From Mytilisepta virgata (Eukaryota > Mollusca > Bivalvia > Mytilida > Mytilidae), in NCBI GenBank assembly GCA_028015205.1, contig CM051517.1:57287455-57351454 (forward strand): DNA of 64,000 bases, in the 5' to 3' direction. Below, piece by piece: positions 40,153 through 56,113 of this stretch (position 1 is its first letter; every line of letters starts with the position of its first letter). Below the pieces are notes generated by a model. The model was not told the origin of the DNA. It did no database searches and saw only the letters and a program-made list of their open reading frames with translations. A program made the translations under genes and the position numbers.

Positions 40153-40514
40153 ATTAATATTTAGGTTGTAATAAGGAAGTTTCCAATGCCAAAATACTAT
40201 TTCCTGCGATATTGTCAGTCGTGGTCGTCGTAAGGATTTCCATACAGATCTCAGGCCAACCCTCCTGTGATCTGGTAGTAAGATTTTCCATATAAGGTCA
40301 GGCCATGCCTCCTGCGATCTCGCGATACCTGTCACGACTGAAAGAAAACATGCAATTTTGAAACCGACAAAAATGACAAGATGTGCAAAACAACGATTTC
40401 AACATTAATAATAAAGTAATTCTACATTTAATATGCTGGAAATTATACAGTTCAATGATATTTCAGATAAACACGACATCTTCGTTATTGCCGTAGGTAA
40501 AAGTTATTTTTTCT

Positions 40515-40727: not shown

Positions 40728-40733
40728 GAAATT
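40728..40733 (+). repeat. Polinton target-site duplication, left
   Basis: GAAATT, identical to 56,108-56,113 and present once at the empty paralogous site 33,521-33,526. Confidence 0.95.
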
Positions 40734-41155
40734 AGTAGTATATGGGGACAGGCAAATTATCATTTGAGGTGGTGCTACCGGAAGTGACGTCAACCGGAAA
40801 TGACGTCACCGGAAGTGACGTGACCGGAACCGGAAGTGATTTTTGCGCGCATGCGCAACCGGAAGTAGTGGATTTTCCCGCCATTTCTTAACGGAAGTGA
40901 CGTAAGTCACGTGGTAGGACCCGGATGTGTGTTCTGCGCATGTTCAGGAACCGGAAGTACCCGGAAGTGGTTTGCGCAACCGGAAGTAGGGTGTTTTTTC
41001 CGCCATTTGTTGACGGAAGTGACGTAAGTCACGTGGTAGGACCCGGATGTGCCGTCTGCGCATGTTCGGGCGGAACCGGAAGTGGTTGGTGCAACCGGAA
41101 GTAGTGGATTTTCTCCATTGACGGAAGTGACGTCAGTCACGTGCTGGGACCCGAA
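40734..41155. repeat. Polinton left terminal inverted repeat
   Basis: Matches the inverse of 55,661-56,107. Packed with CCGGAAGT (ETS-type) words, about ten, interleaved with TGACGTCA/TGACGTAAGTCA (CRE/AP-1-like), CACGTG or CACGTGGT (E-box) and TTCCCGCCA/TTCCGCCA (E2F-like). The right repeat has an extra block of about 21 bp (GATCACCTGACTTCCGGTTC region). Such repeats carry the replication ends for protein-primed PolB; the motif density may also make them enhancer-like. Confidence 0.93.
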
Positions 41156-41334
41156 TGTGTAGGTGGAAGTCCAAAGAGACCTCCTCCAAGGGGGAGATAA
41201 CTTTTCCCCATAATCTCCTCTAACAATACAAGGGGAGACAAAAAAAAAGCTGATCTGCATTTAAACAAGGCTGTCAACTGTCAACATTCGAAGCAAACCA
41301 TTATGATGGCTTCAAATGCAGGCTGCATTAACTT

Positions 41335-41347
41335 TTTTTTTTTTTCT

Positions 41348-41389
<42 letters not shown>

Positions 41390-41416
41390 CTAATTTTTTT
41401 TTTTTTTTTTTTTTTT

Positions 41417-41451
<35 letters not shown>

Positions 41452-41476
41452 CTAATTTTTTTTTTTTTTTTTTTTT

Positions 41477-41524
<48 letters not shown>

Positions 41525-41551
41525 CTTTTCTACTTTTTTTTTTTTTTTTTT

Positions 41552-41585
<34 letters not shown>

Positions 41586-41598
41586 CTTTTTCTTTTGG
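41335..41598 (-). terminator. encoded A-tract after CARD-PC4, with GTTAATGCAGCC module
   Basis: Minus strand: the CARD-PC4 stop at 41,599 is followed by about 250 bp of A runs broken by AAATTTGAAA and AAATTAGAAA words, then GTTAATGCAGCC (41,321-41,332). The same arrangement follows the protease and PolB genes. The role is inferred; homopolymer lengths in assemblies are unreliable. Confidence 0.55.
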
Positions 41599-42363
41599 TT
41601 ATAAGTCTGGTCCATTTGGTTGACATTCACTGCAAAACATGGCACTTTCCACGTTCTGGTGGGTTACTGCACAAGATAAGGTTTTCCTCAACTCGGGAAC
41701 GAGTTCTGGGATGACTTTGTCCACCTCCTTTAATTTTTCGTACTGTTCAAAATCCAAACTCACTCCTTGGTCTGTCGGATGTAGCTCTTCGTCCAGAGGC
41801 GATAGAGAGTAATGGCGAACGTCTAACTTTAATTCCGGACTCTGTGCCGTGACGTACACGTTTCCACCGAGGTGTTTGTGTAGGGACGCGTATCTGTTGT
41901 GTTCCAAGTAATGAACGGCCTCGTCGATATCGTCCAAGGTATATTGGAGTTGTATCCAGCGAAACAGTGGGAAATACACTTCCATCCTCCCGTCAGTCAA
42001 GGTGATTCCCTCCTTTTCAACCTTCAGGTGTAAGCTGCCTCCCAGATGAAAGCTGGACTCTTCCGGGAAACAGATTTCCATGTCCTCTTTGTCGGGATCT
42101 GTCAAGACTCCTAGCAGATCGTCCCTCCTATTCACCATCAGGGCGTGACAAAAACCGTTAAATGCATCCGGACCTCTTCTGGGTAGTAATTGTAGTAAGG
42201 TACGGGTCCGCATCTTCCTGGTTGGTTGATGACAAATGAATTCTCTCTGGTCCTCGTCCACTATGCCTCGTTGTACCAATACATCGACTACTTCGTCTAC
42301 CGGCGTTTCGTTCACCAAAAGAACGTAATTCTTGAGCAAGGCTTGTCTGTGCTGTGGTTGCAT
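41599..42363 (-). CDS. CARD-PC4 fusion protein (254 aa), predicted cell-death/immune adaptor
   Basis: Start chosen at 42,363, 34 nt after a TATATATA box; the open frame runs 76 codons further upstream but there it only reads the promoter repeat. Residues 3-88 look like a CARD: six amphipathic helices with VDVLVQRGIVDEDQREFI, TRKMRTRTLLQLLPRRGPD and AFNGFCHAL, the last like the RG..AF..F...L helix of RAIDD/CRADD-type CARDs. Residues 105-145 and 165-220 are PC4-like modules (SPELKLDVRHY, LHPTDQGVSLDFEQY), the same pair as in the 172-aa protein of this element. A C-terminal Cys/His cluster (C231, H235, C244, C247) may bind zinc. It may be an element-captured host CARD fused to the element's own DNA-binding module. 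Family knowledge predicts homotypic CARD binding to apoptosis or innate-immune adaptors; that role is inference. The single-gene block sits next to the left repeat. Confidence 0.8.
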   Translation of the reverse strand: MQPQHRQALLKNYVLLVNETPVDEVVDVLVQRGIVDEDQREFICHQPTRKMRTRTLLQLLPRRGPDAFNGFCHALMVNRRDDLLGVLTDPDKEDMEICFPEESSFHLGGSLHLKVEKEGITLTDGRMEVYFPLFRWIQLQYTLDDIDEAVHYLEHNRYASLHKHLGGNVYVTAQSPELKLDVRHYSLSPLDEELHPTDQGVSLDFEQYEKLKEVDKVIPELVPELRKTLSCAVTHQNVESAMFCSECQPNGPDL

Positions 42364-42390
42364 CTCGACGTCTGTAACGTTCGAAGGAAT

Positions 42391-42505
42391 AAGACGATAT
42401 ATATAGCCAGAACGCGGACGTAAAAGAGAGCACCATGGGTGTCTACGATCAGGTCCGCGTCCACGACATGTTGCAACATGTCTGCATGACGTCATGAAAC
42501 ATGGC
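42391..42505 (-). promoter_or_regulatory. CARD-PC4 promoter: CRE, stem-loop and TATA, shared with PolB
   Basis: Minus strand 5' to 3': ATGACGTCAT (CRE), ACATGTTGCAACATGT (palindrome), GACGCGGACCTGATCG, CACCCATGGTG, TACGTCCGCGTTCTGGC, TATATATAT (42,397-42,405), CGTCTT. The GCGGAC/GTCCGC arms can form a stem. The whole block matches unit 4 and the TATA end of the PolB upstream array at 54,500-54,870. Confidence 0.8.
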
Positions 42506-42620
42506 GGCGCCCACGGTACGTGTCGCAACACGTCGAGTAGGTTGCATGAAACATGCTGGGGAACGAATGAGAGAGGTGGGTCACTCTGCATTTATCCAGG
42601 CTTGTGACTGGCTAGTGATA

Positions 42621-42713
42621 GGCTGCATTACCCCCCTTCTTTTTTTTTTTTTTTTTTTTTATATTTTTTTTTTTTTTTTTTTTTTTTAATTTTTTAATTT
42701 TTTTTTTTCTTTT
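42621..42713 (-). terminator. encoded A-tract after protease, with TAATGCAGCC module
   Basis: Directly after the protease stop (42,714) the minus strand is almost pure A for 75 bp, then GGGGGGTAATGCAGCC (42,621-42,636 region) and CAGTCACAAGCCTG. Same module as after PolB and CARD-PC4. Confidence 0.55.
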
Positions 42714-43166
42714 TTATATTTTTTTAACGAGTCGTAACACGAATCTATTCACAGTGTCCGTGGCCTCTTTTGGATCCTCCAATAGTCTAGTGATATCCTT
42801 CATGACATGTCCCATACTCCGATGTATCAGATAAAAAATGCAGTGCTGACCGCACACCGTTGAACCTTCTTCTTGTACCCTGACGGTGTTGTATGTCCAC
42901 ATTCGACAATGTCGATTCATGAAGTTTAGGTAAGCGATCGAATGAGGTGGTATGCCGGTAGGATCGTAGTATTCTCCCATGGAATTGGCATCGATGTATA
43001 TAGCTATCCAATGTTTTCCCTCTCGACTATCAGGATCCGTGTTCCCCACCAAGGCCGAAGGCACGTTCATCTGTCTGGGTAATCGATTTCTGGCGTACAC
43101 TCCTTTAAACACTGATCTGGTCCCCGGATGATCGTTTAAGACGCCTTCGATCTCTAAAGTGTTCAT
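42714..43166 (-). CDS. adenain-type maturation cysteine protease
   Basis: 150 residues. His-Asp-Cys triad in family order: H52 in GKHWIAIYID, D68 in EYYDPTG, and C109 in STVCGQHC with Q98 ahead of it as oxyanion residue. This is the Polinton PRO/adenovirus endopeptidase (C5-like) layout and near-complete length; in related viruses it cleaves capsid and core precursors inside the particle. The start overlaps the major capsid stop by one base (TGATG), suggesting translational coupling or simple compaction. Intact. It is followed at once by an A-tract. Confidence 0.93.
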   Translation of the reverse strand: MNTLEIEGVLNDHPGTRSVFKGVYARNRLPRQMNVPSALVGNTDPDSREGKHWIAIYIDANSMGEYYDPTGIPPHSIAYLNFMNRHCRMWTYNTVRVQEEGSTVCGQHCIFYLIHRSMGHVMKDITRLLEDPKEATDTVNRFVLRLVKKI

Positions 43167-44468
43167 CAGGCACTGTAATCAAACAGGACTTGTCTATTTC
43201 TGTCTATTTCGATGACGTTGTCGAACTCTGCATACAAAACCACGTTGATGGTAGCAGGAAGTGCTTCGGCAAAATGAATTTCTAAACGTAAGTTGCCTTG
43301 TTTTATCAGTTGAAAGGTACCCACTTCAGACATGTCGGGGGTCAAATCGAAACCAAACAAGGTGTAGCCTTTAGAGAAGTCTTCTCTGGAAATGGCGTTT
43401 CCTTCGTCTTGAAACATCTTTCCGGTGCTGGTATAGAGTCCCATGTAACTTCGAATGTATCCTTCCCCACCGAAATCCGGCTGCAGGGGTTTGCTGGGTA
43501 TCTGTTTTCCGTCCACGTTGAGCGCGACAAAGTTTATCTTGAAGTGTTTAAAGTTAAACGGGTTTTTCGTGATGTTGCCGTTCAAAGCATCGCTTTCTAC
43601 ACAGCCTATGACCAATCGCTTGGGCATCTGTCCCAGGAACATGTTGTCTTGGACGTAATTGGTGTTTCCTCTAGGTACAGTGTCCACTTTGACTTCCACC
43701 CGTCGTATGGGGTATTTGCTGCTCGTTTTTTTCCAAAGCTTTGATGTGGGCCATGCGAATGGCCGGGCTCAACTGCACCTTTCTGACGAATAGACCTAAA
43801 TCTCTAATCTTAACCTTGAAAGCGTTGGCATGTCCCATCAAAGCAAAGACGTCTCTGCTCCTCCTCAGTTTGATTTTCAGTTCAACTTGATTTAATAAGT
43901 ATTTATCTTGACAAAATAAGTCTACGTGAAGTTTTCCCATCATCTGGACTTGTCTGCTTTCGGCAATCAATGCCTTTCTGCTGGAGAATCCCACGTTGTC
44001 GTCGGTTCTAGCCTCTATGTGTTCGGGTGTGTCTTTGTACCACATGACTCCGGTCAATTGAGATTCTTTGGCACCGGGTCCGTAGCTGAGCAAAGTTTCT
44101 ATATAGGCCCGATACGGGTAAACACTCGTGGGAGGGGACACCAATTTCTCGTTGAGACTCACACTGACATCGCTAAAGAGCGAATGCATCCATAGATTCA
44201 CAGGTCCCACGTCCGAATCGTTGGCCAAATTGCTTCCGTCCGCTTTCACGATCTGTGCCTCTACGAACAGATACGTGTTGGCCAAGTCGATGTAGTCTTC
44301 TCCGGCCCCGCTTACGACGAATTCGTAAGGTCCTTGGTCCGTCAGAGCCGATGTTACACCTTTCTGTTCCCAATATCCGTGTTCTACACTGGTCTGGGTG
44401 GGTGGAACCCCAAACAAGTCCAATTCCGATTTAGTGCATTCGCACGAGTGTGGATGTACGAGTGACAT
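43166..44468 (-). CDS. major capsid protein (double jelly-roll type), interrupted by a single-base frame change
   Basis: Two abutting frames. 44,468 to about 43,733 carries the N-terminal part ([39 protein letters not shown]), and the frame from about 43,726 to 43,166 carries the C-terminal part (NKPFNFKHF-like region with [39 protein letters not shown]). Together about 430 codons, normal for Polinton/adintovirus major capsid proteins, which build the trimeric hexon-like shell. The frames change at a homopolymer of seven identical bases (43,726-43,732), so one extra base, real or a sequencing error, breaks the gene. The extra-base direction does not fit a -1 slippery site. The start overlaps the pX-like stop (TAATG). 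Confidence 0.88.
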
Positions 44469-44881
44469 TATCCGAAAACGTCTTGCGATGTGGTCCGTTG
44501 CTTGGTCAGACGACGTCTGATACGTTTCTTGGGTGCAGGTCTTTTTATAACTCGTTCTCCGGGTGGGCCGGCATACCCGATGGCTTTCTTGAACATGTTT
44601 TTGCCTGCCGTTTTCAATCTGGACTTGGCAGCTTGTTTCAAATTCTTTCCTTCAACGGCGTCTCCGGCAATGCGTAGTCCCGTTTTCAACGCTTGGCGAC
44701 CCAGTGTCTTGGCTCCTTTTTTCAGTAACGGCATGGCCGCCTTAAACAATCCTCCAAACACGCTTCCCAATCCGTGTCCCCTTTGAAATCGACTTCCCCC
44801 ATAGACGGGATAACCACTCCCCGCTTGATGAAGATAATAGTCTTCGTAAGACTTGGCATCACAACAATGACGTGCTTTCAT
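44468..44881 (-). CDS. basic pX/pVI-like minor virion protein
   Basis: 137 residues, strongly basic. A Gly-rich N-terminal patch (GSGYPVYGGSRFQRGHGLGS) leads into an amphipathic segment (VFGGLFKAAMPLLKKGAKTL) and a Lys/Arg C terminus (PAPKKRIRRRLTK). Metazoan Polintons/adintoviruses carry such a protein next to the capsid genes, compared with adenovirus core/pVI-type proteins. A DNA-condensing or membrane-active role is inference. It overlaps the penton-like stop by ATGA and shares a base with the capsid start. Confidence 0.8.
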   Translation of the reverse strand: MKARHCCDAKSYEDYYLHQAGSGYPVYGGSRFQRGHGLGSVFGGLFKAAMPLLKKGAKTLGRQALKTGLRIAGDAVEGKNLKQAAKSRLKTAGKNMFKKAIGYAGPPGERVIKRPAPKKRIRRRLTKQRTTSQDVFG

Positions 44882-45624
44882 GTTAAAAACTTCTTTTTTC
44901 TGCAGTGAAGTGTTACCACCACTCGTCCACGTTCGAATGGCACGATTCCTCCCGTGTCGTCCCTTATATCTATTTCGATGTCCTGGAATCGGCGCTGTAC
45001 GAGGGTACAGTATTGAATGGGATCGAACACACGCGTCATCATATCTCCGTCTCTACCTTCTACGGGTACGATTCTCAACAGTGGAACTTGCGAGTCACCC
45101 ACCATTCTTGGTTCGATCAATGGACAGTACACGTACAACGAACTTAGACTTCTCGTGATGTCGGCGACAAACTCGGCCATGTGTTCTCCGGCCGGAAAGA
45201 TGGCCTGTTTGAATCCTAACATGTTCTGTAACAAGGGACTGAGAATAACTTGACTGTTGGGTTTGACTTGAACGAACACTTTATGATTCACTTCGTTTAA
45301 ACCGATGTTGAATTTTTTCTTGAGTTCCGTCCTGCTCTTTTTGGATTCCACGGCTTTACACAGACGTTTCGCAGACGAGTAATACCCCTCCGGCAATTCG
45401 AAATGATGTCGCTGTAATTCCTCGCTTTCTTGAAAATGAACACCTACCCATCCTTCCTGTTTCTTTACGTTGTACCACGTATGCGGATACTGTATCTCTG
45501 CCAATCCGATCTCCCACGATCCGTCTAAATCCATCATATGAGGTAATCTCGTCGTGTAGCGAGTCAAGGTGTTGTCCGGATAATATTCCATCGAACTATT
45601 GCTGGGTAACGTCAGATAAAACAT
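44878..45624 (-). CDS. minor capsid (penton-like, single jelly-roll) protein
   Basis: 248 residues. The N-terminal signature YYPDNTLTRYTTRLPHMMDL then GSWEIGLAEIQYPHTWYN is typical of Polinton minor capsid proteins, which form the fivefold vertices. A beta-rich body with LLQNMLGFKQ and LYVYCPLIEPRMVGDSQVPL follows. Full length, no breaks. The start overlaps the end of the membrane-protein gene by 29 bp in another frame; the stop overlaps the pX-like start by four bases. Confidence 0.9.
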   Translation of the reverse strand: MFYLTLPSNSSMEYYPDNTLTRYTTRLPHMMDLDGSWEIGLAEIQYPHTWYNVKKQEGWVGVHFQESEELQRHHFELPEGYYSSAKRLCKAVESKKSRTELKKKFNIGLNEVNHKVFVQVKPNSQVILSPLLQNMLGFKQAIFPAGEHMAEFVADITRSLSSLYVYCPLIEPRMVGDSQVPLLRIVPVEGRDGDMMTRVFDPIQYCTLVQRRFQDIEIDIRDDTGGIVPFERGRVVVTLHCRKKKFLT

Positions 45625-45844
45625 TATGTTTGATTGTCGGATTTGGCAAGAGGTATCCCAAACAGCTGCTCAGTAAAGCCGTCCACAGGTTACTGTTTTC
45701 TGTGCCGATCGTTAAATTGTAAATACTGACGACAATCACTGTATACAAAATCAGAATTTGGCACAGGAATACAATCTCCGGGCGTGGTAGTTTCTTTCCG
45801 AAAGCAACCCAAGACCTTCTGCTATCCGTATCGTTCGGTGCCAT
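45596..45844 (-). CDS. small single-pass membrane protein
   Basis: 82 residues: a hydrophilic head with SWVAFGKKLPRPE, one transmembrane helix (IVFLCQILILYTVIVVSIYN) and a second hydrophobic patch (LWTALLSSCLGYLLP). I recall a KKLPR-E-IVF protein of this kind next to the penton gene in metazoan adintoviruses/Polintons; its role is unknown. Starts 4 bp after the integrase stop. Confidence 0.75.
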   Translation of the reverse strand: MAPNDTDSRRSWVAFGKKLPRPEIVFLCQILILYTVIVVSIYNLTIGTENSNLWTALLSSCLGYLLPNPTIKHNVLSDVTQQ

Positions 45845-45848
45845 CGAT

Positions 45849-46910
45849 TCAACTGATTCGCTTTGAGTGAACGTCTCGCTTTTGTAGATCCGAAGAAAAT
45901 ATCCAACTGTTGAATTTGGCGGGATAACCCAACCATATGACGAGATACTGTAATCTCCTGCCCTTCTTTCTCTTCGTCAAAATTTTTTCGATTTTATACA
46001 CGTCGTCTTTCTTAATGACTTTCTGTAATTCTTCGGCATAAAATGTTCCCTCCAATTCTTCTCCGTGATCGTCTTTCACCACGTATACCGGGGGTCTGGT
46101 CTCGATGCATCGGACCACGCTAAACAATTCTTCCGTCCAATGAGGTAAATATCCTTTTTTAAATGTTCTTTTGGCTTTAGTGAGTCGCACTCGATCTCCA
46201 GTTTTGAATTTGCATTTTGGAATCGAGCCACTTCTTCCATACAATCGTTTGGCTACCGAGGTCTGGTTAGCCCATGTCACTTCGACCGGTTGTCTACCGA
46301 TACTTCTATGGTAAGTATGATTGTACGAGATCACCATGTCTTCCAAAGCATCCAAATACGTCAACGTTTCTCTGTGAGTAAAATATTTCCACATTTTGGT
46401 TTTTAACGTACGATTAAAACGCTCCACGATACTGGCTTTCGTTTCCTCGTTATGTGTCGTAAAGAAATGGATGTCGTGATCTCTTAAAAATTTCTGGAAC
46501 ACTCGGTTGGTAAGTTCCGTGCCTTTATCCGTCTGTAAACGAATCGGACGTCTTCCCGACTTGAAAATGACATTAAAAGCTGCCACTAGACTCCGCCCCG
46601 TCTTGTCTTTGAGAGGTACGACCCAGGCGTATCTCGACAACACGTCGATACAGGTAAGCAAATATCTGTATCCATCGTTATAAGACGCAATCTTCGCTAC
46701 GTCTACTAAATCCGCTTGCCATTGATGATCTATTCCATACACCACCACTTTTCGTCTGACGAACCGTCTTCTAGTTGGTTTATGTAGAGTATATGCATCT
46801 TGAGTATGTAACCATTCTTTGACTTCTTTTTGCGTGTACCCTTTCGGTCTGAATTTATTAAGACCTCCATAACTCCCGGGATCAGGAACATGGTAATACG
46901 TCGAGTCCAT
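45849..46910 (-). CDS. retrovirus-like (rve) integrase with chromodomain
   Basis: 353 residues. DDE core: D67 in QWQADLVDV, D128 in LQTDKGTEL, E163 in ASIVERFNRTLK, with 34 residues between the second D and the E. The C-terminal region ends in a chromodomain-like segment (YKIEKILTKRKKGRRLQYLV, IWLGYPAKFNSWI), a known feature of Polinton integrases that may steer target choice. It joins the element ends to chromosomal DNA and makes the 6-bp duplication seen here. Intact; 37 bp downstream of the preceding gene. Confidence 0.96.
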   Translation of the reverse strand: MDSTYYHVPDPGSYGGLNKFRPKGYTQKEVKEWLHTQDAYTLHKPTRRRFVRRKVVVYGIDHQWQADLVDVAKIASYNDGYRYLLTCIDVLSRYAWVVPLKDKTGRSLVAAFNVIFKSGRRPIRLQTDKGTELTNRVFQKFLRDHDIHFFTTHNEETKASIVERFNRTLKTKMWKYFTHRETLTYLDALEDMVISYNHTYHRSIGRQPVEVTWANQTSVAKRLYGRSGSIPKCKFKTGDRVRLTKAKRTFKKGYLPHWTEELFSVVRCIETRPPVYVVKDDHGEELEGTFYAEELQKVIKKDDVYKIEKILTKRKKGRRLQYLVIWLGYPAKFNSWIFSSDLQKRDVHSKRIS

Positions 46911-46947
46911 GTCCTAAACTAACAGCGGTTGGATGTGACATTTCTTT

Positions 46948-47586
46948 TTAATACGGTGTCCACGTCAATGCCTTGGGAGTTTTCGGTGTTTGCCATCGTT
47001 TCGGAGACGGACTTTGTTGTCGTTTTCGAGCTCTCGGTGTTCTTTTCGTTTGATGAATATGTCTCCATCTTTCTTCGTGACCTATCAAATCTTGTGGGAC
47101 GTTAGCTTCTCTTAACGCGTCGCCAAACCTTTCCCATCCTTCCGGGTTAAAATATTTCCTTTTACGCAAGACGTCGTTGACTAAATCCACCACATTGCTT
47201 CCCTTGATGGTTTCTCCTTTAAACGTTAATTCTCCCTTCTCGTTCCACGTGATCTCTGGACTGGCTTTCATTTTCTTCCATAAAAGTTCTGCTTTTCCTT
47301 TGAGTGTTTTGGGAACACTTTCTATGACCTCTTTCTCCAAGGGATCTTCGGAAGTTGTCGGGAGTTCCGGGACCACAGGTCTGGGTCTATAATCATCGTG
47401 TATATTCATATAACGATAAAGAGACTGATCATATAATTTCAATCGCTCCTCGGTCGGTAGATCGTCACGTTCCAAGATATCGTGCATCTTTCTATCTAAG
47501 GTATCCATGGCTCGGATTCGCTGATCGACCGGAGGTTTGGGTCGCTGTGGGATCTGAGTAGACGTATTCAAATACAAGATCTTCAT
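46948..47586 (-). CDS. Polinton protein of unknown function (212 aa)
   Basis: I recognise no domain. Pro-rich and charged, with an acidic helical middle (MHDILERDDLPTEERLKLYD; PLEKEVIESVPKTLKGKAEL), NYGWERFGDALR-like block as EGWERFGDALREANVPQDL, and a basic Pro/Ser tail (TPRARKRQQSPSPKRWQTPK). A protein of this type precedes the integrase in several animal Polintons as far as I recall. The ATG overlaps the preceding stop as ATGA. A structural or DNA-binding role is possible. Confidence 0.7.
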   Translation of the reverse strand: MKILYLNTSTQIPQRPKPPVDQRIRAMDTLDRKMHDILERDDLPTEERLKLYDQSLYRYMNIHDDYRPRPVVPELPTTSEDPLEKEVIESVPKTLKGKAELLWKKMKASPEITWNEKGELTFKGETIKGSNVVDLVNDVLRKRKYFNPEGWERFGDALREANVPQDLIGHEERWRHIHQTKRTPRARKRQQSPSPKRWQTPKTPKALTWTPY

Positions 47587-47918
47587 TGTAACAATCCGGA
47601 GAGTAACGGTCCCACGACGGATGCAATGGGTGCCAAGAGAGAGCCCAAGAATCCTCCTTTCTGTAAAATGACTTTTTTCTTTTTGAGGCTGACCGTCTTT
47701 TTCGCCAGTTCTCGGAGTCCGCTTTTATTTCGTTTCAATTTATCTTTCTGTGCACGAGTTAACTCGACGTGTCCTTTCAAAACGTTATCAGCACACTCGC
47801 ACAAACACTCGATGAGACTTCGATCGGCTTTCCGTATGAGATGTTTTTGAACGCAAGGCTTTGCGTGTCGTAAATATACTAGATCGTTGGCGTGTTTTCG
47901 GAGACGTGTCGAGACCAT
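47583..47918 (-). CDS. small basic protein with hydrophobic tail (111 aa)
   Basis: Basic N-terminal two thirds with KHLIRKADRSLIECLCECAD and KKTVSLKKKKVILQKGG, then a hydrophobic, Gly/Pro-containing C terminus (FLGSLLAPIASVVGPLLSGL). This pattern recurs in Polinton/adintovirus genomes and has been compared with adenovirus pX/core-like proteins; a membrane-active or virion role is inferred. The stop overlaps the next start (ATGA). Confidence 0.75.
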   Translation of the reverse strand: MVSTRLRKHANDLVYLRHAKPCVQKHLIRKADRSLIECLCECADNVLKGHVELTRAQKDKLKRNKSGLRELAKKTVSLKKKKVILQKGGFLGSLLAPIASVVGPLLSGLLQ

Positions 47919-47974
47919 GTTCTCTCTTCCGTTTTCCGGCCAAGACTGACGTGACGCTGTATTCGTCGACGTAT

Positions 47975-48709
47975 TTATGCATCCACGTAAGCACTCTGTA
48001 CTTCTCCGGGGAAAATATGGCTTCTCAATCTCAGTCGATCTGGAGTCTGTTGTTTCATGTCGATGATTAAATACCCGTGAGGTTCGGCCGTGGCGGCAGC
48101 ATAGGCATCTAATAAAAGATCCCCTTTCCGAGGAAACATTTGTCGAGCCAAACTATGAATCTGAGAAGCGTCTCGAGGATTCTTGAATAAGACCATGTAA
48201 TGAGCATTGAGACTGATGGTCCTGTGGTGTTTACCCTGATGAAAGATGTTTTGTACGATATACATGACGCTGATGTTTCGATGATGACTCTTTTTAGTAA
48301 ATAAGGAAGCCACTTGGTCATCGGTTTCTGTCATCAAATCATCGATGATAATCAAGTGTCGCCTACTCGAATCTAAACTATCGATATCGGGTAGTCCTTG
48401 TATAAATTCTACACCGTCCACGGTACCATAAAGCGTTTGGTATTCGCTATAACACCATAAAATTCGAGCAGGAAAAGGGCACATCATATGGTGGATATTA
48501 GCCACGAATCGTTTGACAAAGACCGATTTCCCACTTCCCGTAGGACCGGCAATCAAACAGGTAAACGGGTGAATCCAAGGCATGAAATGATTCGGATCGA
48601 ATCCATCTGAACAATAAAAGATATTGGGGTCTTTGGTAGGATTACAATAGTAAGGTTCTTCTTGCTCAAGGAATGGGGTTTGTTGATCGGAAGGCCACTC
48701 GGTACTCAT
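47975..48709 (-). CDS. FtsK/HerA-type genome-packaging ATPase
   Basis: 244 residues. Walker A GPTGSGKS at 55-62, Walker B LIIIDDLM at about 119-126, and a downstream sensor-type QN (YIVQNIFHQG). The length and order match the A32-like packaging ATPases of Polintons, adintoviruses and other jelly-roll capsid viruses, which pump DNA into the shell. Intact. It is the first gene of the tight core run; a TATA-like GATAAATATC lies about 55 nt upstream. Confidence 0.94.
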   Translation of the reverse strand: MSTEWPSDQQTPFLEQEEPYYCNPTKDPNIFYCSDGFDPNHFMPWIHPFTCLIAGPTGSGKSVFVKRFVANIHHMMCPFPARILWCYSEYQTLYGTVDGVEFIQGLPDIDSLDSSRRHLIIIDDLMTETDDQVASLFTKKSHHRNISVMYIVQNIFHQGKHHRTISLNAHYMVLFKNPRDASQIHSLARQMFPRKGDLLLDAYAAATAEPHGYLIIDMKQQTPDRLRLRSHIFPGEVQSAYVDA

Positions 48710-48751
48710 GTTGTCGGTTTGAGTGCTAGATCAAGACTGATCGTGGTGATT

Positions 48752-48770
48752 GTATACTGGGATATTTATC
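48752..48770 (-). promoter_or_regulatory. TATA-like region upstream of the ATPase gene
   Basis: Minus strand GATAAATATCCCAGTATACA, 43-61 nt upstream of the ATPase start. Weaker than the TATA boxes of the PolB, PC4 and CARD genes. Confidence 0.4.
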
Positions 48771-48807
48771 GACGACCAACACAAACGAAACAGTTTCATA
48801 TTTTATT

Positions 48808-49326
48808 TTACATTTTTACAAAATCTACATCAGTCAATGTTTTGAGTTCTGGTTCTTTCTCTTCAAACAGAGGTACGATCTTCTTCAGTTCTTGCCATTC
48901 GTAGGAACTCAGTGTTATACCTCTCTTGGTCGGTTGTAAAGTCCATTCTCCGTTAGGCACGAAATGTTTTCTGACGTGAATGATAGGCGAGGGTGCTTTA
49001 ATGATGACATAAACATCTTCTCCCAGATGATATCTCCAGTCCACCGGTTCTTTGTCCTGTACTCTACCGATCAAATCGTCCACCACTTCTGTGGTACTGC
49101 ACAACATTTTCCACTGCATTAACGACAGGCTGACTCCGGTCTTGGTGGGCACCGTTTCACTTTCCCAAAATCTGAGATCTACTCTTTTACTGCCATTCCA
49201 TTCTGTCAGCTCTGCATAACGTCCTCCACCCAATGGTACTTTCAAAGGAATATCGGAATCTGTCATGGCGTCTTGGACGATATCGCTCTCGGTCTGGTCT
49301 TTGGTTTTCTTTTCTTTACGTGGCAT
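48808..49326 (-). CDS. tandem PC4-like single-stranded-DNA-binding protein (172 aa)
   Basis: An acidic/Lys-rich N terminus, then two PC4/p15-like modules at about 33-80 (GGGRYAELTEWNGSKRVDLR, TKTGVSLSLMQW) and 99-155 (DVYVIIKAPSPIIHVRKHF, LQPTKRGITLSSYEWQEL). The G-R-Y/D-V-Y strand, V-R-K/D-L-R strand and T(K/R)xG(I/V)(S/T)L helix cap follow the coactivator PC4 fold. PC4 binds single-stranded DNA; in the element it could assist replication or transcription (inference). The same pair occurs in CARD-PC4, pointing to duplication. It has its own strong TATA box. Confidence 0.78.
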   Translation of the reverse strand: MPRKEKKTKDQTESDIVQDAMTDSDIPLKVPLGGGRYAELTEWNGSKRVDLRFWESETVPTKTGVSLSLMQWKMLCSTTEVVDDLIGRVQDKEPVDWRYHLGEDVYVIIKAPSPIIHVRKHFVPNGEWTLQPTKRGITLSSYEWQELKKIVPLFEEKEPELKTLTDVDFVKM

Positions 49327-49357
49327 GTCGGCTGACTGATTCTTTTTCTAGCTGGTC

Positions 49358-49375
49358 TATTTATATATATATATT
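49358..49375 (-). promoter_or_regulatory. TATA box of the tandem-PC4 gene
   Basis: Minus strand AATATATATATATAAATAG, 32-49 nt upstream of the ATG at 49,326, the same spacing as in the CARD-PC4 and Bcl-2-like genes. Confidence 0.65.
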
Positions 49376-49452
49376 TGTGAAGATGGACTGGATTGGTTCT
49401 TATATCATGAAACTCGAAACAGGATTGGCTATCTTTAAGACATCTTGATTGG

Positions 49453-49713
49453 TTAACTTCTTCCGCTCCGATTGGTCGAAAATCTGTCATTTTCATTGGT
49501 CAATTCCAACCTTTTCGATAGATCAACACGATGATACACTGTCCAAATATGCGGCGCCCAATCCGGAAACTGTTCACAATAGGTACGAGTAAACGCCGAC
49601 AATACGATCAGTCTTCCTTGGTTCACCACACCGTCTTCGAACATGGCAGTGACGATTCTCTCGTATACTTGGAAGGGGTCCATCGTACGAATGACTTCTC
49701 TGATCATCTTCAC
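49453..49713 (-). CDS. minimal Bcl-2-like protein, BH1 only (86 aa)
   Basis: Residues 12-43 (DPFQVYERIVTAMFEDGVVN, QGRLIVLSAF) follow helices 4-5 of Bcl-2 proteins, with FEDGVVNQGR at the place of the BH1 core F.DG..N.GR. No BH2-type W..NGGW follows, no BH3 or C-terminal membrane anchor is visible, and the tail (NENDRFSTNRSGRS) is polar, so it is either a truncated copy or a minimal family member. Bcl-2 homologues have, I recall, been reported in some adintoviruses. Blocking host apoptosis is the expected role if it folds; unproven here. It is the first gene of the core block, with a TATA-like CTATTTATAG about 35 nt upstream. Confidence 0.62.
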   Translation of the reverse strand: MKMIREVIRTMDPFQVYERIVTAMFEDGVVNQGRLIVLSAFTRTYCEQFPDWAPHIWTVYHRVDLSKRLELTNENDRFSTNRSGRS

Positions 49714-49747
49714 TTCCTTTTATACACGTGACAGGCACGTCTTTCCT

Positions 49748-49757
49748 CTATAAATAG
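49748..49757 (-). promoter_or_regulatory. TATA-like box of the Bcl-2-like gene
   Basis: CTATTTATAG on the minus strand, 35-44 nt before the ATG at 49,713. Confidence 0.5.
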
Positions 49758-49797
49758 AAAATGAGTGTAAATTTAGAAACATAGTTTTTTTTTTCCA

Positions 49798-49938
49798 AAC
49801 ACCCACTATGGTCCGCGGTCAGGGCTTTTAACGACCTGACAACCCTCAACGAGAGGGGGTCCCCTATCCGCCACCTGGGGGACGCGCTAGGCAGCTCTGT
49901 GGGTTGAGCTCCTGTGTTTTTGATCACAGGTTCCTAGT
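49798..49938 (-). repeat. SINE-head-related segment inside the Polinton
   Basis: ACCCACTATGGTCCGC, CGACCTGACAACCC, CGCTAGGCAGCTCTGTGGGT and CACAGGTTCCTAG are colinear with 8,072-8,212 (SINE C). The tail half of the SINE is missing. It lies between the PolB A-tract and the Bcl-2-like promoter. Confidence 0.7.
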
Positions 49939-50004
49939 TCATAAAAAAGGCTACTCTGCATTGACAGGCTGGTAACTGTCTACATATATACAAGTATATA
50001 CATA

Positions 50005-50135
50005 GGCTGCATTAACCTTTCCTTTTTTTGTTTTTTTTTACTTTCTACTTTTTTTTTAAAATTTTTTCTTTTTTTCTTTTTTTTTAAATTTTTTCTTTTT
50101 TCTTTTTTTCTTTTTTTTTAAATTTTTTCTTTTTT

Positions 50136-50170
<35 letters not shown>
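50005..50170 (-). terminator. encoded A-tract after PolB, with GTTAATGCAGCC module
   Basis: About 110 bp after the PolB stop the minus strand is A-rich for about 145 bp (AAAAAAGAAAAAATTT units), then GGTTAATGCAGCC (50,005-50,017) and, further on, CAGTTACCAGCCTGTCAATG. Same order as after the protease and CARD-PC4 genes. Confidence 0.55.
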
Positions 50171-50283
50171 TTATCGGTTAACAGACGACTCAAAAAAGAG
50201 TGGTCTGTTCATACATCAAAAGAAAAGCTTTCCCACTACATAAAGTACATATGTACAATCGAGTCGGTCAGCCGTTCATCCGA

Positions 50284-53200
50284 TTAAATATCTAAGGGTG
50301 TCGTAGGCACCCCGTCCGCCAAAACTTTACGTTTTGGGTAAAAGTACGAAAAACCAGCTCGCTCTTGCAAGTAGGTATAGATTTGGTTGTCTACAGAGCG
50401 AAACCCTCTGTTGGTTCCGGAGCCAGAGTTCTTCGACAGGAGAACGTCCATGTATTTCTCCTTGTTGATGTCGTTTGTTCTCCTGTTGACTCCTTTACAG
50501 CTGAACTTTGTTTCGTCTCCAAAGCAGAAGTACGTCTTGCTACACAGGGCAATCATCCCGTCACCACTGAATTCAGTCTTGAATAGTCCTGGAGTCCTCT
50601 TGTCCCAAGCAGCCAGTTGTGATGTGTCGGTACGGGGAAACCAATTCTTCTTCTCTGCTTCAAAGCGCCGACGCAACTCCGGTTTGATCACTTCCTCCAA
50701 ACTATCGCCAGAGAGAGCCATGTAGGCACTGTCGGTGTCCATTGCACAATATTGATAATCACGGCGATCCACAAAAACGTCCATAAAATCGTAATAAAAT
50801 TCCAACATCCGAAGTTTGGCGTACTGGTAAACGAAACACCCAATGTGCATGGGCAGGTCCAGGTGTATGGTCTTCTTACTCATTTCCACTTCGAAAGTTT
50901 TGTCACTCAGCTGGTTGCACCGGCGGAAAGAAGGATCTACGAGGTAGCGACTGATCTGGTGTTCCTGGCAGTAAATCACATCCGTGTGTCTTTCCTTGTT
51001 GGTCACCGTCTTGCCGTAGCTGGAATTTCCCCTCAGTTTCTCGTTTTCGGCAATTATCTTCTTATTTGGGTCGGTATCTCCGGCTCGCCTGGCATCACTG
51101 ACTTGATCGCCGAAGGCTCTGAAACACGCCGACGGTGTGTACTCCACCACTTGGTAAATCTTGGTGACTTTCAGTCCGTGGTTGACGTACCATTTCAGCA
51201 ACGGGGATATCACCATGATCTTCTCTCCAAACATGCTGCCGATTAAAGACTTTCTAGGCTGGGACATGATTCCTTTTTCTTCTGCATAACTCTTCATGTG
51301 GTCCCCAATGTCGTCTCTGGACACGTCCACGTTCTTGAAGACTGGAGGCATTTCTGCAAATTTTGACTTTAGGTCCTCAGGTACGTGCAGGTCCACTTCT
51401 AAGGCACCAAACAACTTGTCCTCCATCACGGCTCTCATGATGTCGTCTTCGGTCATGGTGGCGAAACGATCGCAGGGTCTCTGTCTCTGAGACACGAAGG
51501 TCTTGATTCCTTGGTCTTCTTTCTTTAACCGATCCCATTCGCACTCCCACATCTGTTTCACTTGGTAGTCGTTTTCTGTAATGTACTCTATTTTTTCTCG
51601 GGTGGCCTTGTTTAATTCTTCCAAGCTCTTTCCGTTCAACGGGTTTTCTGTCTTTCCCCGAGTCAGGCGACAACAATGTCCGTGCCACAGGCAGCCCTGG
51701 AACTCGTAAACTGTATTAGTATCCTTACAGTAGCCGTCCACGGGAAGGCGCCGACGTCCGATCAGTTTTCCCGTGTCGTTCCCCTGGTGACGTATGTGGT
51801 GTCCTGTCTCCTTGGCTTCCCATTCCATCCACTCGATTGCCATTCTTTCGTACCTTCGAGGTGTCTGTCTTTTAAAATGGTCCTCGCTCTTGCGTCGGAC
51901 GAAGTGACCCGTTGGCATATCCTGCATGATGCTCCACAGGTACAAAGCATTGGCGTCCACACCGTAGATCTTCTTGCACGGTTTTGGGTCTTCGTATTCA
52001 GCAGGCCGGATGAAGGTCTGGTCTTTCTCGTGGTATCTGTGGAAGACGATGCTGGGTCCACCCACTATGTTTTCTTTGTATAACTCGTACAGATCTTTGT
52101 TCTTCTCGTCCGGAACGGTGAAATAATCGGATAGACCATCGAACATGGTTTTCAGTGTGAGTCCCGGTACGCTGATGCCGTGTTTAAACATGTCCACCTT
52201 CAATCCCTTGTAATATACAAACATCTTCTCGATGGCTTCCAGCATGGGCTCCACGTCTTTGTTGTTGTACCATATCAGGAACTCTTTCACGTTCTTCATT
52301 TTCTTTTCCTGCCAGACTTGGCGACACAGCTGGTACTCTTCGGGTGCAATGTTCTCGTTTTTCAGCGTACTGAAAAATGCCTGGTGTGGTGGTAACTCCG
52401 TCACTGCCAACTTGTCTAAACCCGTCATCCACTCGTATGGAAAAAATCCTTTCTCTTCCGCACAGCCGTAGGCTTTCAAAAACTGTGAGTAACTAAACCC
52501 GGGCGCCAGGTAGTTGGTGATGTCCAAAAATTTCAACTTCTCCGTCTTGATACACATGAAATTGTTATTGCGCTTCACTGTATACTTTATCTTGTGACTT
52601 TCCACCAGACGAGTGAAGAAATCTATCTTCATGGCGTTCACGTCGTATTTCCCGGTGTTGAACCCAATCACGGGTAATTCTTGGAGATGTCGTTCTAGTT
52701 GCTGCTTCAACTTGTACAGGTGATGTTTCTTTTCCTGGCGTTCTCGCTCTTCGTCGTCTTGGTATTCTTCCATGTCCCGATCCAGTCTCTCTTGGATCTC
52801 TTCAAATACACCAGCGTACCTGGGCATCAGTAGGCGAAAGGCTTTGTCACTTATTTCTGTCAAATGTATCAAACACGAATCAACTGTTTCACTGCTATCG
52901 CCTTCGGACACGAAACAAATTGGCTCTGTAAACTCCGGTACGTTGGAACACACGGAAACGCTGAGCAAAACGTGTTGACTGGTCCATTCCAATTTATCCG
53001 ACCTCGGTTTGTCTGTAGGTTGAAGCATCGCCTCTATATCGTAGGTGGTTCTGTACGGATAATATCTGTCTTCTACCGGAACTTGGATTCCTTCGTCCTC
53101 CAAACGTTCGAACACTGTCTGTGGTGTATGGTACACTCCGCCGGGGTATTTGTAGAGTACGTCGCCGGTGCAGGTTCTCTCGTGTCTCTGTAGGTGCCCT

Positions 53201-54477
53201 ACATGCTTCCACATCTTGTCACATTTTGAACACAGGTAACTGTGACTGTATTTCTCCATGTTGCTGACATAACTAAAATGGTTGTCGTACAAATTCAAGT
53301 TCATGGTGTCCTGGAAACTGTAAGGAGAACGTCGTACTAATCTCGCCGCTACGTCGCCGTCTTCTGTCTCTTGAAGATCGTACACACAGATGTTGAGTTG
53401 GAACAGTGGTTCGATGTACGCCAAATCGTCTAAACAAATGCCTTTGAAATCACCGCCGGCCATTTCTGTCTTCTGCAAATATTGGCGATGGTAAGTCTTG
53501 GCAGGTACTTCTACGTTTACGACGGGAGCTCCACGGTGGACGGCCAAACATCGGAAAAAACACAAATTGTCATCATATGGCCCATGGGATCCACCAACCA
53601 AGCACACCAACCCTTTGTTCCTCAGGAAGAAGTCTGGTAACACGACTTTGGCTCCTATCGGGTGTTCCACCAACTTGTTAACATAGAACGTGGCATTTGT
53701 CAGTAGATGCACTACCCATTTGGTATCTGGTCTCTGCTGCCGGATGAACTCCAAAATGTCGTGACGACTCAGTTCTTCCAGAAACTGCTCTATGTCTTCT
53801 TCGTTTCTTATCAGGTGTGGTACGTCGAAAAACCTGGCGTTGTTCTGGCTGGAATGGAAGTATCTAAGTTCTCCGGTCTCTACGTTCCTCAGTACAAAGC
53901 CAAACGACACGTTGATCTTGAAGGCCGTGGTCTGGAGTTCGAACATGTGGCGAACCATGTCAGGAAAGGTACCAGTTGTAATTTCGTTCAACGTAAAGTT
54001 GAACCGATCCTGGACACGGTTGCCGGTATTTTCTTCTGTCCGGATGGTCTGCCAGTGTCTCAGGTACAAAACCCTGGTATCGGGATCTTCTGGCAATACG
54101 TCTGGCTGAAGGTTGATGGCTGTCTTCACTGGTAGGTTGTCTGGTCTGCTCATCCTGCGTCTTTCCGCACTGGGGCCAGGTAGTGGCGAGGCTGGTCTCT
54201 TGAGTGGTTTCATCATCCTGGGCTTGGCATCTGGCTTGGTATGCAACAGTCTGTGGCGAGCAAGGTTGTCCGATCTGTTAAAGTACTGCCCACAGTCTGG
54301 ACACTCCAGGGTGTACTGGTGGGACTCCTGGTGGCGATTCCTGACATCTGCTCTGGTAAACTCCTTTCCACATACCTGGCATGAATACGTCTGGTCCGCA
54401 ACAGCATGTGTCTTCTGGTGGCGAATCAGGCTTCTCTTCTCCGTAAACGTCTTACTGCACTTCTCGCAAGAGAACAT
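50284..54477 (-). CDS. polB: protein-primed DNA polymerase B with zinc fingers and OTU-like segment (1,397 aa)
   Basis: Replicates the element from its terminal repeats. Domains in order: three C2H2 fingers (about 4-79; CEKCSKTF, CQVCGKEF, CPDCGQYF); an OTU-like segment with YDDNLCFFRC (301-310) and the matching LNLYDNHFSYV (H400), the D/C/H pattern of OTU cysteine proteases; a fourth C2HC finger (C416-C436); a 3'-5' exonuclease with ExoI TTYDIEAML (480-482), ExoII GFNTGKYDVN (605-614) and ExoIII WYNNKDVEPM (736-745); an EFQGCLWHGH block (925-934) seen in this polymerase group; and the palm with YGVDANALY (838-846), KLRGNSSYGKT (1147-1157), MDTDS (1246-1250) and KGVNRRTN. All catalytic motifs are present and there is no break. 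Long even for Polinton PolBs because of the N-terminal fusion. The OTU assignment rests on motif spacing only. Confidence 0.95.
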   Translation of the reverse strand: MFSCEKCSKTFTEKRSLIRHQKTHAVADQTYSCQVCGKEFTRADVRNRHQESHQYTLECPDCGQYFNRSDNLARHRLLHTKPDAKPRMMKPLKRPASPLPGPSAERRRMSRPDNLPVKTAINLQPDVLPEDPDTRVLYLRHWQTIRTEENTGNRVQDRFNFTLNEITTGTFPDMVRHMFELQTTAFKINVSFGFVLRNVETGELRYFHSSQNNARFFDVPHLIRNEEDIEQFLEELSRHDILEFIRQQRPDTKWVVHLLTNATFYVNKLVEHPIGAKVVLPDFFLRNKGLVCLVGGSHGPYDDNLCFFRCLAVHRGAPVVNVEVPAKTYHRQYLQKTEMAGGDFKGICLDDLAYIEPLFQLNICVYDLQETEDGDVAARLVRRSPYSFQDTMNLNLYDNHFSYVSNMEKYSHSYLCSKCDKMWKHVGHLQRHERTCTGDVLYKYPGGVYHTPQTVFERLEDEGIQVPVEDRYYPYRTTYDIEAMLQPTDKPRSDKLEWTSQHVLLSVSVCSNVPEFTEPICFVSEGDSSETVDSCLIHLTEISDKAFRLLMPRYAGVFEEIQERLDRDMEEYQDDEERERQEKKHHLYKLKQQLERHLQELPVIGFNTGKYDVNAMKIDFFTRLVESHKIKYTVKRNNNFMCIKTEKLKFLDITNYLAPGFSYSQFLKAYGCAEEKGFFPYEWMTGLDKLAVTELPPHQAFFSTLKNENIAPEEYQLCRQVWQEKKMKNVKEFLIWYNNKDVEPMLEAIEKMFVYYKGLKVDMFKHGISVPGLTLKTMFDGLSDYFTVPDEKNKDLYELYKENIVGGPSIVFHRYHEKDQTFIRPAEYEDPKPCKKIYGVDANALYLWSIMQDMPTGHFVRRKSEDHFKRQTPRRYERMAIEWMEWEAKETGHHIRHQGNDTGKLIGRRRLPVDGYCKDTNTVYEFQGCLWHGHCCRLTRGKTENPLNGKSLEELNKATREKIEYITENDYQVKQMWECEWDRLKKEDQGIKTFVSQRQRPCDRFATMTEDDIMRAVMEDKLFGALEVDLHVPEDLKSKFAEMPPVFKNVDVSRDDIGDHMKSYAEEKGIMSQPRKSLIGSMFGEKIMVISPLLKWYVNHGLKVTKIYQVVEYTPSACFRAFGDQVSDARRAGDTDPNKKIIAENEKLRGNSSYGKTVTNKERHTDVIYCQEHQISRYLVDPSFRRCNQLSDKTFEVEMSKKTIHLDLPMHIGCFVYQYAKLRMLEFYYDFMDVFVDRRDYQYCAMDTDSAYMALSGDSLEEVIKPELRRRFEAEKKNWFPRTDTSQLAAWDKRTPGLFKTEFSGDGMIALCSKTYFCFGDETKFSCKGVNRRTNDINKEKYMDVLLSKNSGSGTNRGFRSVDNQIYTYLQERAGFSYFYPKRKVLADGVPTTPLDI

Positions 54478-54499
54478 AGTCGTTACCTTTTCAAAGGTT

Positions 54500-54870
54500 C
54501 AAGACGATATGTATAAATTTTCATCTGTATATATAGCCAGAACGCGGACGTAAAAGAGAACACCATGGGTGTCTTCGCTCAGGTCCGCGTCGACCAAAAT
54601 TTTCGATTTTTTCCTGAACGCGGACGGAATAGAGAGCACCATGGGTGTCTACGATCAGGTCCGCGTCCACCGAAATTTTCGATTTTTTTTTCCTGAACGC
54701 GGACGGAATAGAGAGCACCATGGGTGTCTACGATCAGGTCCGCGTCCACCGAAATTTTCGATTTTTTTTCCTGAACGCGGACGTAAAAGAGGGCACCATG
54801 AGTGTCTACGCTCAGGTCCGCGTCCACGACATGTTTCAACACGTTTTCTAATGGAAATTTCCATGACGTC
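54500..54870 (-). promoter_or_regulatory. PolB upstream region: TATA and four stem-loop repeats
   Basis: Tandem units of 66-72 bp, each with GAACGCGGACG..., CACCATGGGTGTCT and AGGTCCGCGTC (GCGGAC/GTCCGC arms around a loop of about 35 bp). Units are separated by AAATTTTCGATTTTTT. On the minus strand the most gene-proximal unit ends TTCTGGCTATATATACAG, with a second TATA (TATACATATCGTCTT) at 54,501-54,515, some 25-35 nt before the ATG. The distal unit continues into ACATGT and TGACGTCA. One unit with the same flanks drives CARD-PC4. Confidence 0.8.
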
Positions 54871-54897
54871 ACATTAACGGGATCCAACATGAACGCC

Positions 54898-55115
54898 AAA
54901 AAATATAAAAAATAAAAATAAAAAATAAAAATAATAGAAAATAAAAAAAATTAAAAAAATAAAAATAATAATAATAAAAATTAAAAAAAAAAAAAAAATA
55001 TTAAATATAAAAAAAAAAAAAATAATAAAAAATTAAAAAAATATGTAAATATATTAAATAAAAAAAAATATGATAATATAAATAGAAAAAAAATTAAGAA
55101 AATAATAAAATACTT
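54898..55115. repeat. A/T low-complexity tract
   Basis: About 215 bp of AAAAT/AATAATA words on the plus strand, without G or C for long stretches. A possible easily melted region near the right end; no gene. Confidence 0.8.
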
Positions 55116-55260
55116 ACCTAACCCTAAAATAATCTTATCCCTAACACTAGTACCACTTCAAAGTCATAAGGGATTGAGACCAATCCACCCTTTGAAACAT
55201 GACTTTGAAGCAGGCTGCAAAGCAGAACTAGTGTTAGGGTAAACGATTGTCTTTAGGGTG
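55116..55260. repeat. imperfect palindrome with TTAGGG/CCCTAA words
   Basis: CCCTAACACTAGT (55,139-55,151) pairs with ACTAGTGTTAGGG (55,228-55,240), and CTTCAAAGTCAT with ATGACTTTGAAG. Extra CTAACCCTAA and TTTAGGGT words lie outside. A hairpin inside the Polinton near its right end, function unknown. Confidence 0.7.
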
Positions 55261-55274
55261 CTTTCAGGTCTGAG

Positions 55275-55385
55275 TACAGAGCAGCGTTGAGCAGCAAAGA
55301 ACAAGAGAAGAGCAGCGATGACGAACAGCAACAAGCCTGAGTAGCCATGAGCAGCAAAGAACGGGATGGAGCAAGAGAAGAGAAG
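55275..55385 (-). repeat. heptamer minisatellite seed in the Polinton
   Basis: GAGCAGCAAAGAACAAGAGA and AGAGCAGCGATGACGAAC-type words, the inverse of the 27.6-28.9 kb array but only about 110 bp long. It is followed by GAAATGGACCGCCGTTGCTA, matching the inner inverted blocks of the 27.1-29.1 kb element. Confidence 0.8.
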
Positions 55386-55660
55386 TGAATGCAATGAAAT
55401 GGACCGCCGTTGCTAAGGCGGTTGCTAAGGATACCCCTCCATTGGTGACAAGCATCACTTGGAGGTAAGGGGACATAATCCAATCCTAGTCCTCACAGAA
55501 AATACCCACAGTTGAAAAGAGCGGGATAAGGGGAGATAATCCAATAGTGTACTTCGTATACTCTCGGACTTCGACATAACAGTGAGAGACCGATGAAAGA
55601 ACCAGAGACGACCGAGAAATGCGGGAAAAGGGGAGATAATTCAATCTGGTGAAGCATGAA

Positions 55661-56107
55661 ACTTCCGGGTCCGTGACTTGCGTCACTTCCGTCAACAAAT
55701 GGCGGAAAAAACACCCTACTTCCGGTTGCACCAACCACTTCCGGTTCCGCCCGAACATGCGCAGACCACACATCCGGGTCCTACCACGTGACTTACGTCA
55801 CTTCCGTCAACAAATGGCGGAAAAAACACCCTACTTCCGGTTGCGCAAACCACTTCCGGGTACTTCCGGTTCCTGAACATGCGCAGAACACACATCCGGG
55901 TCCTACCACGTGACTTACGTCACTTCCGTTAAGAAATGGCGGGAAAATCCACTACTTCCGGTTGCGCATGCGCGCAAAAATCACTTCCGGTTCCGATCAC
56001 CTGACTTCCGGTTCCGGTCACGTCACTTCCGGTGACGTCATTTCCGGTTGACGTCACTTCCGGTAGCACCACCTCAAATGATAATTTGCCTGTCCCCATA
56101 TACTACT
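55661..56107. repeat. Polinton right terminal inverted repeat
   Basis: Inverse of 40,734-41,155 with the extra block of about 21 bp near 56,000-56,020 and otherwise near-identical outer parts. It ends CCCATATACTACT against GAAATT. Same ACTTCCGG, TGACGTCA and CACGTG word set. Confidence 0.93.
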
Positions 56108-56113
56108 GAAATT
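56108..56113 (+). repeat. Polinton target-site duplication, right
   Basis: GAAATT, identical to the left copy at 40,728-40,733. Confidence 0.95.

Follow-up and report, generated by a model that had tools for sequence, protein, structure and literature searches.

A protease-less CARD joined to PC4-like repeats in a Polinton of Mytilisepta virgata: a candidate decoy against host cell death

We analyzed a 64,000-nucleotide stretch of the genome of the bivalve Mytilisepta virgata (GenBank assembly GCA_028015205.1, contig CM051517.1, positions 57,287,455 to 57,351,454), hereafter referred to as the window, to which all coordinates below refer. The window contains a Polinton, and the minus strand of this element encodes, at 41599..42363, a protein of 254 amino acids in which a CARD is followed by two PC4-like repeats and a Cys/His tail. 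This gene, CARD-PC4, suggests that the element meddles with the cell-suicide machinery of its host. We consider it somewhat more probable than not that the Polinton behaves as a virus, with CARD-PC4 as an accessory gene, and that the CARD acts as a decoy against host cell death.

Results

Residues 3–88 of the protein (42100..42357, minus strand) were identified as a CARD with Pfam, a PDB profile search, an AlphaFold2 model, Foldseek and VIA-align. The match to PF00619 scored 42.1 bits against a curated threshold of 23.9, and the modeled region is a six-helix bundle with a broken helix 1, as in the death fold. A CARD at these residues had been proposed in a sequence-only reading of the gene, and the agreement of Pfam, profile, model and structural searches confirms it; a chance match or a non-CARD helical fold is thereby excluded. 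No protease follows the CARD within the open reading frame (ORF), which argues for a non-enzymatic, decoy-type make-up. In this, the gene matches viral CARD decoys, which are protease-less CARDs encoded by virus-like elements.

When the CARD profile was compared with solved structures, the best scores were obtained for CED-3 (42.5 bits), RAIDD (39.9 bits) and Apaf-1 (39.6 bits). Lower scores were obtained for a designed CARD-fold protein (38.6 bits), CARD8 (35 bits), NOD1 (27 bits), caspase-9 (25.9 bits), RIP2 (20–22.9 bits) and IFIH1 (18 bits). A provisional sequence of the human caspase-2 CARD, the score of which serves as a lead only, reached 65.0 bits in a run in which CED-3 reached 45.6. 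Identity of the window protein to initiator-caspase and adaptor CARDs was 28–36%, the caspase-2 value again depending on the provisional sequence. Two fragments among the relatives described below are named ‘caspase 2’ by their source, probably by automatic naming, and two other rows carry unrelated names. On balance, the apoptosis branch, comprising initiator caspases and their adaptors, fits the CARD better than does the inflammatory or RNA-sensing branch.

A promoter-like block of 44 nt that ends in TATATA is located just upstream of CARD-PC4 (42400..42443, minus strand) and recurs with one mismatch upstream of the putative gene for DNA polymerase B (PolB) of the element (54530..54573, minus strand). 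A scan of the window on either strand, allowing up to 5 mismatches, yielded no copy beyond these two, and none was present in the approximately 110 nt preceding ten other element ORFs. The gene for the ordinary tandem PC4-like protein of the element, which consists of 172 amino acids and lacks a CARD (48808..49326, minus strand), is preceded by a separate TATA-like run. A wider unit of 79 nt occurs once before CARD-PC4 and as four imperfect tandem copies before the PolB gene (54531–54842, minus strand). Given that one promoter-like block is common to both genes, the simplest reading is that CARD-PC4 is co-expressed with the polymerase and is thus probably an early gene.

Acidic positions 23, 24, 27 and 28 and basic positions 50, 52, 54, 62 and 63 were all largely kept among 13 CARDs. 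With both charged faces largely retained, the sequence does not point to a single partner of the CARD, which could nucleate an assembly as well as cap one. The CARD might therefore activate its target, either nucleating host CARD filaments or recruiting caspases, with NF-kB-like signaling or late lysis for particle release as the outcome; herpesvirus E10, a fused viral CARD protein, is an activator of signaling. We nevertheless regard activation as rather unlikely, given that the promoter-like block recurs before the polymerase gene but is missing from the capsid-region ORFs, which points to an early role, and that the closest functional precedent identified here, GIV-CARD, inhibits apoptosis.

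The first PC4-like repeat (residues 102–154; 41902..42060, minus strand) was recognized in the AlphaFold2 model and by profile comparison and had no Pfam match, and the second (residues 160–221; 41701..41886, minus strand) was recognized by Pfam, a PDB profile search and the model. The second repeat matched human PC4 with a profile E value of 1.3e-5, and the PF02229 score of the window protein was 23.7, just under the cut-off of 25. Profile comparison of the tandem with the family of the 172-amino-acid protein gave 98.1%. Both the fold in the model and the sequence profile thus relate the tandem to PC4, and the kinship with the 172-amino-acid protein that had been read from the sequence was upheld. 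The AlphaFold2 model of the latter protein was poor (mean predicted local distance difference test [pLDDT] score of 51.3) and was left unused. The repeats of CARD-PC4 are followed by a conserved C-x3-H-x8-C-x2-C tail (residues 231–247; 41623..41673, minus strand), a possible zinc knuckle in a part of the model with low confidence. This tail was found in 17 of 34 members of the CARD-PC4 set (the window protein and 33 homologues, including broken-off ones and the CARD-less P0033) and in none of 120 listed relatives, out of 187, of the 172-amino-acid protein.

Both repeats of CARD-PC4 carried a net negative charge in all 15 rows counted, and in the 172-amino-acid family a neutral or positive charge was obtained for repeat 1 in 19 of 21 rows and a mildly negative one for repeat 2 in 16 of 21. 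The loop before the conserved glycine is presumably the region that contacts DNA in human PC4. Among CARD-bearing rows that possess this glycine in repeat 2, only 1 of 15 has a basic residue at either of the two preceding positions, and the window protein reads DQ there, whereas the basic loop is present in all 20 rows of the 172-amino-acid family and also in P0033 (RK). A 16th CARD-bearing row, P0028, reads RR before the glycine position, where its sequence breaks off. Judged from these residues, the PC4-like module of CARD-PC4 no longer looks like a canonical clamp for single-stranded DNA.

The loss of the basic loop in most rows bears on two other roles for the protein. The sequence-only reading had described a DNA-binding protein that could sense or sequester host adaptors; in such a role, the PC4 part would sit on single-stranded DNA of the element and the CARD would gather the adaptors. 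The CARD, the PC4-like tandem and the location in a Polinton all stood, and the DNA-binding part of the interpretation was weakened; with the loop lacking a basic residue in 14 of the 15 rows and with acidic repeats throughout, such a tethered sensor or sponge seems quite improbable. A second role would be structural, with the CARD holding PC4-like modules together as oligomers that serve in replicating or packaging DNA, in the absence of a host target. CARDs are self-assembling domains, and the fusion partner of this one is a relative of a core protein of the element, both of which are in keeping with such a use. An acidic module that has mostly lost its basic loop would, however, be a poor part for handling DNA, and a pure scaffold would have no need of a CARD with an initiator-caspase- or adaptor-like profile. 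We therefore judge a purely structural use to be unlikely.

A protein search with CARD-PC4 returned 33 homologues with tabulated identities of 38–68%, of which, according to precomputed Pfam annotation, 24 contain the CARD model and 6 contain both the CARD and PC4 models. A search with the CARD profile returned 91 matches. Among the 122 distinct proteins obtained by pooling, 49 matched in both the CARD and the PC4 parts, 67 in the CARD alone and 6 in the PC4 part alone (blastp, E value of 0.01). Nine of them (P0002–P0007 and P0009–P0011) are full-length, with the CARD, both repeats and the tail, and share 56–69% identity with the window protein. The fusion is thus not private to this element but is present in at least nine other full-length proteins and in many fragments. 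Most CARD-only rows appeared by eye to be short, contig-cut or frame-broken pieces, so that a separate family of CARD-only genes is unsupported. Three of the 91 CARD matches (P0239–P0241; 32–40% identical) resembled host exons. That the gene in the window is itself a host CARD exon that came to lie by chance within an element copy or close to one, or that it is an ORF arisen by chance, is barely credible: it lies between the terminal inverted repeats (TIRs) of the element, shares its upstream block with PolB and is matched by the same fusion in dozens of other proteins.

Among the 187 relatives of the 172-amino-acid protein, 120 were listed and none of these matched PF00619. The CARD is therefore not a regular component of the PC4-like proteins of Polintons, and the finding that would have refuted the sequence-only reading was not made. 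In a tree of 28 rows, the two PC4 families separated at 100/100. Eighteen of the rows were labeled as CARD-bearing, although three of these (P0016, P0020 and P0027) are pieces without a full CARD. P0033, which alone among the PC4-only rows looks complete despite lacking a CARD, was placed on a long branch, and a branch with the CARD rows together on one side was recovered in 61% of bootstrap trees. P0033 may represent the state before the CARD was gained. These sequence relationships fit, as one possible order of events, gain of the CARD by a second PC4-like gene bearing the tail. We infer that a duplicate of the core gene gave rise to the PC4-like part and that the CARD was acquired from a host.

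The element itself spans 40734..56107 (15,374 bp; termini AGTAGTATATGGGG...), as delineated by alignment of its TIRs and by a 6-bp target-site duplication, GAAATT (left copy at 40728..40733, right copy at 56108..56113). The left TIR (40734..41141, plus strand) and the right TIR (55672..56107, minus strand) are 92% identical over the aligned stretch, counting gaps that comprise one 21-nt indel and small ones. TIRs together with a 6-bp target duplication are those of a Polinton, and the gene accordingly lies within such an element, as had been claimed. A direct repeat of approximately 220 bp (39484–39705 and 56487–56710; 77–96% identical in pieces; copies approximately 17,003 bp apart) flanks the element on both sides, beyond the TIRs and the target duplication. 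Simple repeats of a GAGCAACGAAGAGCAAGAGAAG-like motif are present both to the left of the element, in its flank (39881–40168), and within its right end (55269–55388).

All element ORFs assigned here are on the minus strand, in the order PolB-like ORF, 172-amino-acid PC4-like protein, packaging ATPase, integrase with chromodomain, capsid-region ORFs, protease and, at the left TIR, CARD-PC4. The characteristic Polinton set was found as an rve integrase with a chromodomain (45849..46910, minus strand; Pfam, rve E value of 2.8e-14 plus chromo), an A32/FtsK-type packaging ATPase (47975..48709, minus strand; Pox_A32 E value of 1.4e-4, slightly under the curated cut-off) and, as the next gene upstream of CARD-PC4, a cysteine protease of the Ulp1/adenovirus type (42714..43166, minus strand; Peptidase_C5 E value of 0.0031, also under the curated cut-off). 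The putative protein-primed PolB is an ORF of 1397 amino acids (50284..54477, minus strand) with C2H2 zinc fingers at its NH2-terminus, according to Pfam. Its identity as PolB is our assumption from the motifs D-x-NALY, NSSYGK and DTDS, which were recognized by eye; the presumed core showed no Pfam polymerase match even at an E value of 5 when the ORF was scanned as two halves, with only the C2H2 array being detected. The 79-nt units before this gene hold the nearly inverted words GACGCGGAC and GTCCGCGTT and look like a repeated regulatory site. The capsid region (43166–44468, minus strand) consists of two overlapping ORFs in different frames, 43671–44468 and 43166–43699. Neither of these candidate ORFs for a double jelly-roll major capsid protein had a Pfam match, and 43671–44468 was also without a PDB sequence match; the putative major capsid gene of this copy looks frame-broken, or there is an assembly error at this point. 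Among IMG/VR viral contigs, no relatives were found for CARD-PC4 (as a single sequence or an alignment), the ATPase, the family alignment of the 172-amino-acid protein or the integrase, and a PHROGs scan of five element proteins gave no match.

Elsewhere in the window, an ORF of 365 amino acids at 25059–26156 (minus strand) encodes a Tc1/mariner-type transposase (DDE_3, HTH_Tnp_Tc3_2), and Leu/Ser/Cys-rich ORFs at 27514–28970 look by eye like a translated array similar to the GAGCAACGAAGAGCAAGAGAAG-like repeat. A 191-bp tandem repeat with at least four copies that are 77–98% identical extends over 57306–58000, where the repeat scan ended. The ORFs 61775–62356 and 63376–63747 (minus strand) are built of a repeated unit around GQGSRSSKKSLATDGKVPSNHIYLCSGPYYRA; the former scored 27.6 bits for DUF6599 against a cut-off of 27, with no single stretch passing, so that this match is doubtful.

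Discussion

The protease-less CARD, the virus-like nature of the element and the probable expression of CARD-PC4 together with the polymerase make a decoy the easiest reading of the gene. As we envisage it, CARD-PC4 would be produced early, along with the DNA polymerase, and its CARD would use a CARD-CARD contact to bind the host protein that it resembles, be it an adaptor or an initiator procaspase, of the RAIDD/caspase-2 or Apaf-1/CED-3 type. The bound CARD would cap or poison the host assembly, and the infected or replicating cell would thereby be spared an early death. The PC4-like module would more likely serve to anchor the CARD to protein complexes of the element, for example by pairing with the 172-amino-acid protein, or to fix the valency of the decoy. 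Two points temper this reading. The structural ranking was less telling than the profile scores, with Apaf-1 first and then caspase-9, RIG-I and CARMA1 beside CED-3. Net charge alone is also weak evidence, given that repeat 2 of the 172-amino-acid family is mildly acidic in most rows as well.

A more specific proposal, which we put forward tentatively and to which we give less than an even chance, is that an apparently animal Polinton lineage has placed on its polymerase promoter an early gene for a caspase-2/CED-3-type CARD decoy mounted on a copy of its own PC4-like protein that has been put to a new use. The product would be a transposon-encoded death-fold inhibitor, and the PC4 paralogue would have shifted from handling DNA to docking the decoy on the replication machinery.

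Polintons occupy a position intermediate between viruses and transposons, and it is an open question whether those of animals still undergo infectious cycles. A transposon inherited purely vertically would have less need to fight host cell death, and a recurring CARD gene tied to the polymerase by a promoter block points to a conflict with that process. If the more specific proposal above is correct, such Polintons live, or recently lived, as apoptosis-evading viruses. The recurring CARD gene also offers a concrete and testable class of host target, the CARDs of initiator caspases and their adaptors.

Viral CARD proteins are already known; as far as targeted literature searches go, what is new here is the Polinton setting and the PC4-PC4-Cys/His fusion. 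These searches, which used narrow terms and covered few subscription journals, returned no report of a CARD in a Polinton or of a CARD-PC4 fusion, and a term search of the main text of two articles (PMC11071296, PMC11071308) found none of CARD, caspase or PC4.

With regard to known systems, the window element shares with Polinton/Maverick elements of the adintovirus type its TIRs, 6-bp target duplication, rve-chromo integrase, A32-like ATPase, protease and PolB-like ORF, and differs from them in its CARD gene. CARD-PC4 shares the beta4-alpha repeat with the single-stranded DNA-binding coactivator PC4/p15 (SUB1), but it has two repeats per chain, which are acidic and have mostly lost the basic loop. 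The prodomains of the initiator caspases CED-3 and caspase-2 (the latter through its provisional sequence) and RAIDD are its closest natural CARDs by profile, although neither a protease nor a death domain follows the CARD in CARD-PC4. Among viral proteins, GIV-CARD of grouper iridovirus is described as a CARD-only protein of 91 amino acids, with its highest identity to the CARDs of other ranaviruses and with similarity to caspase-1 and human ICEBERG, and as the product of an early gene that reduces caspase-8 and caspase-9 activity as well as apoptosis in HeLa cells (PMC4457926). CARD-PC4 and these iridovirus (ranavirus) proteins have in common a protease-less CARD in an element of the DNA-virus type, with early expression measured for GIV-CARD and inferred for CARD-PC4. 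Judged by that description, CARD-PC4 is set apart from them by an initiator-caspase- or RAIDD-like profile, by fusion to PC4-like repeats and a Cys/His tail, and by its location in a Polinton.
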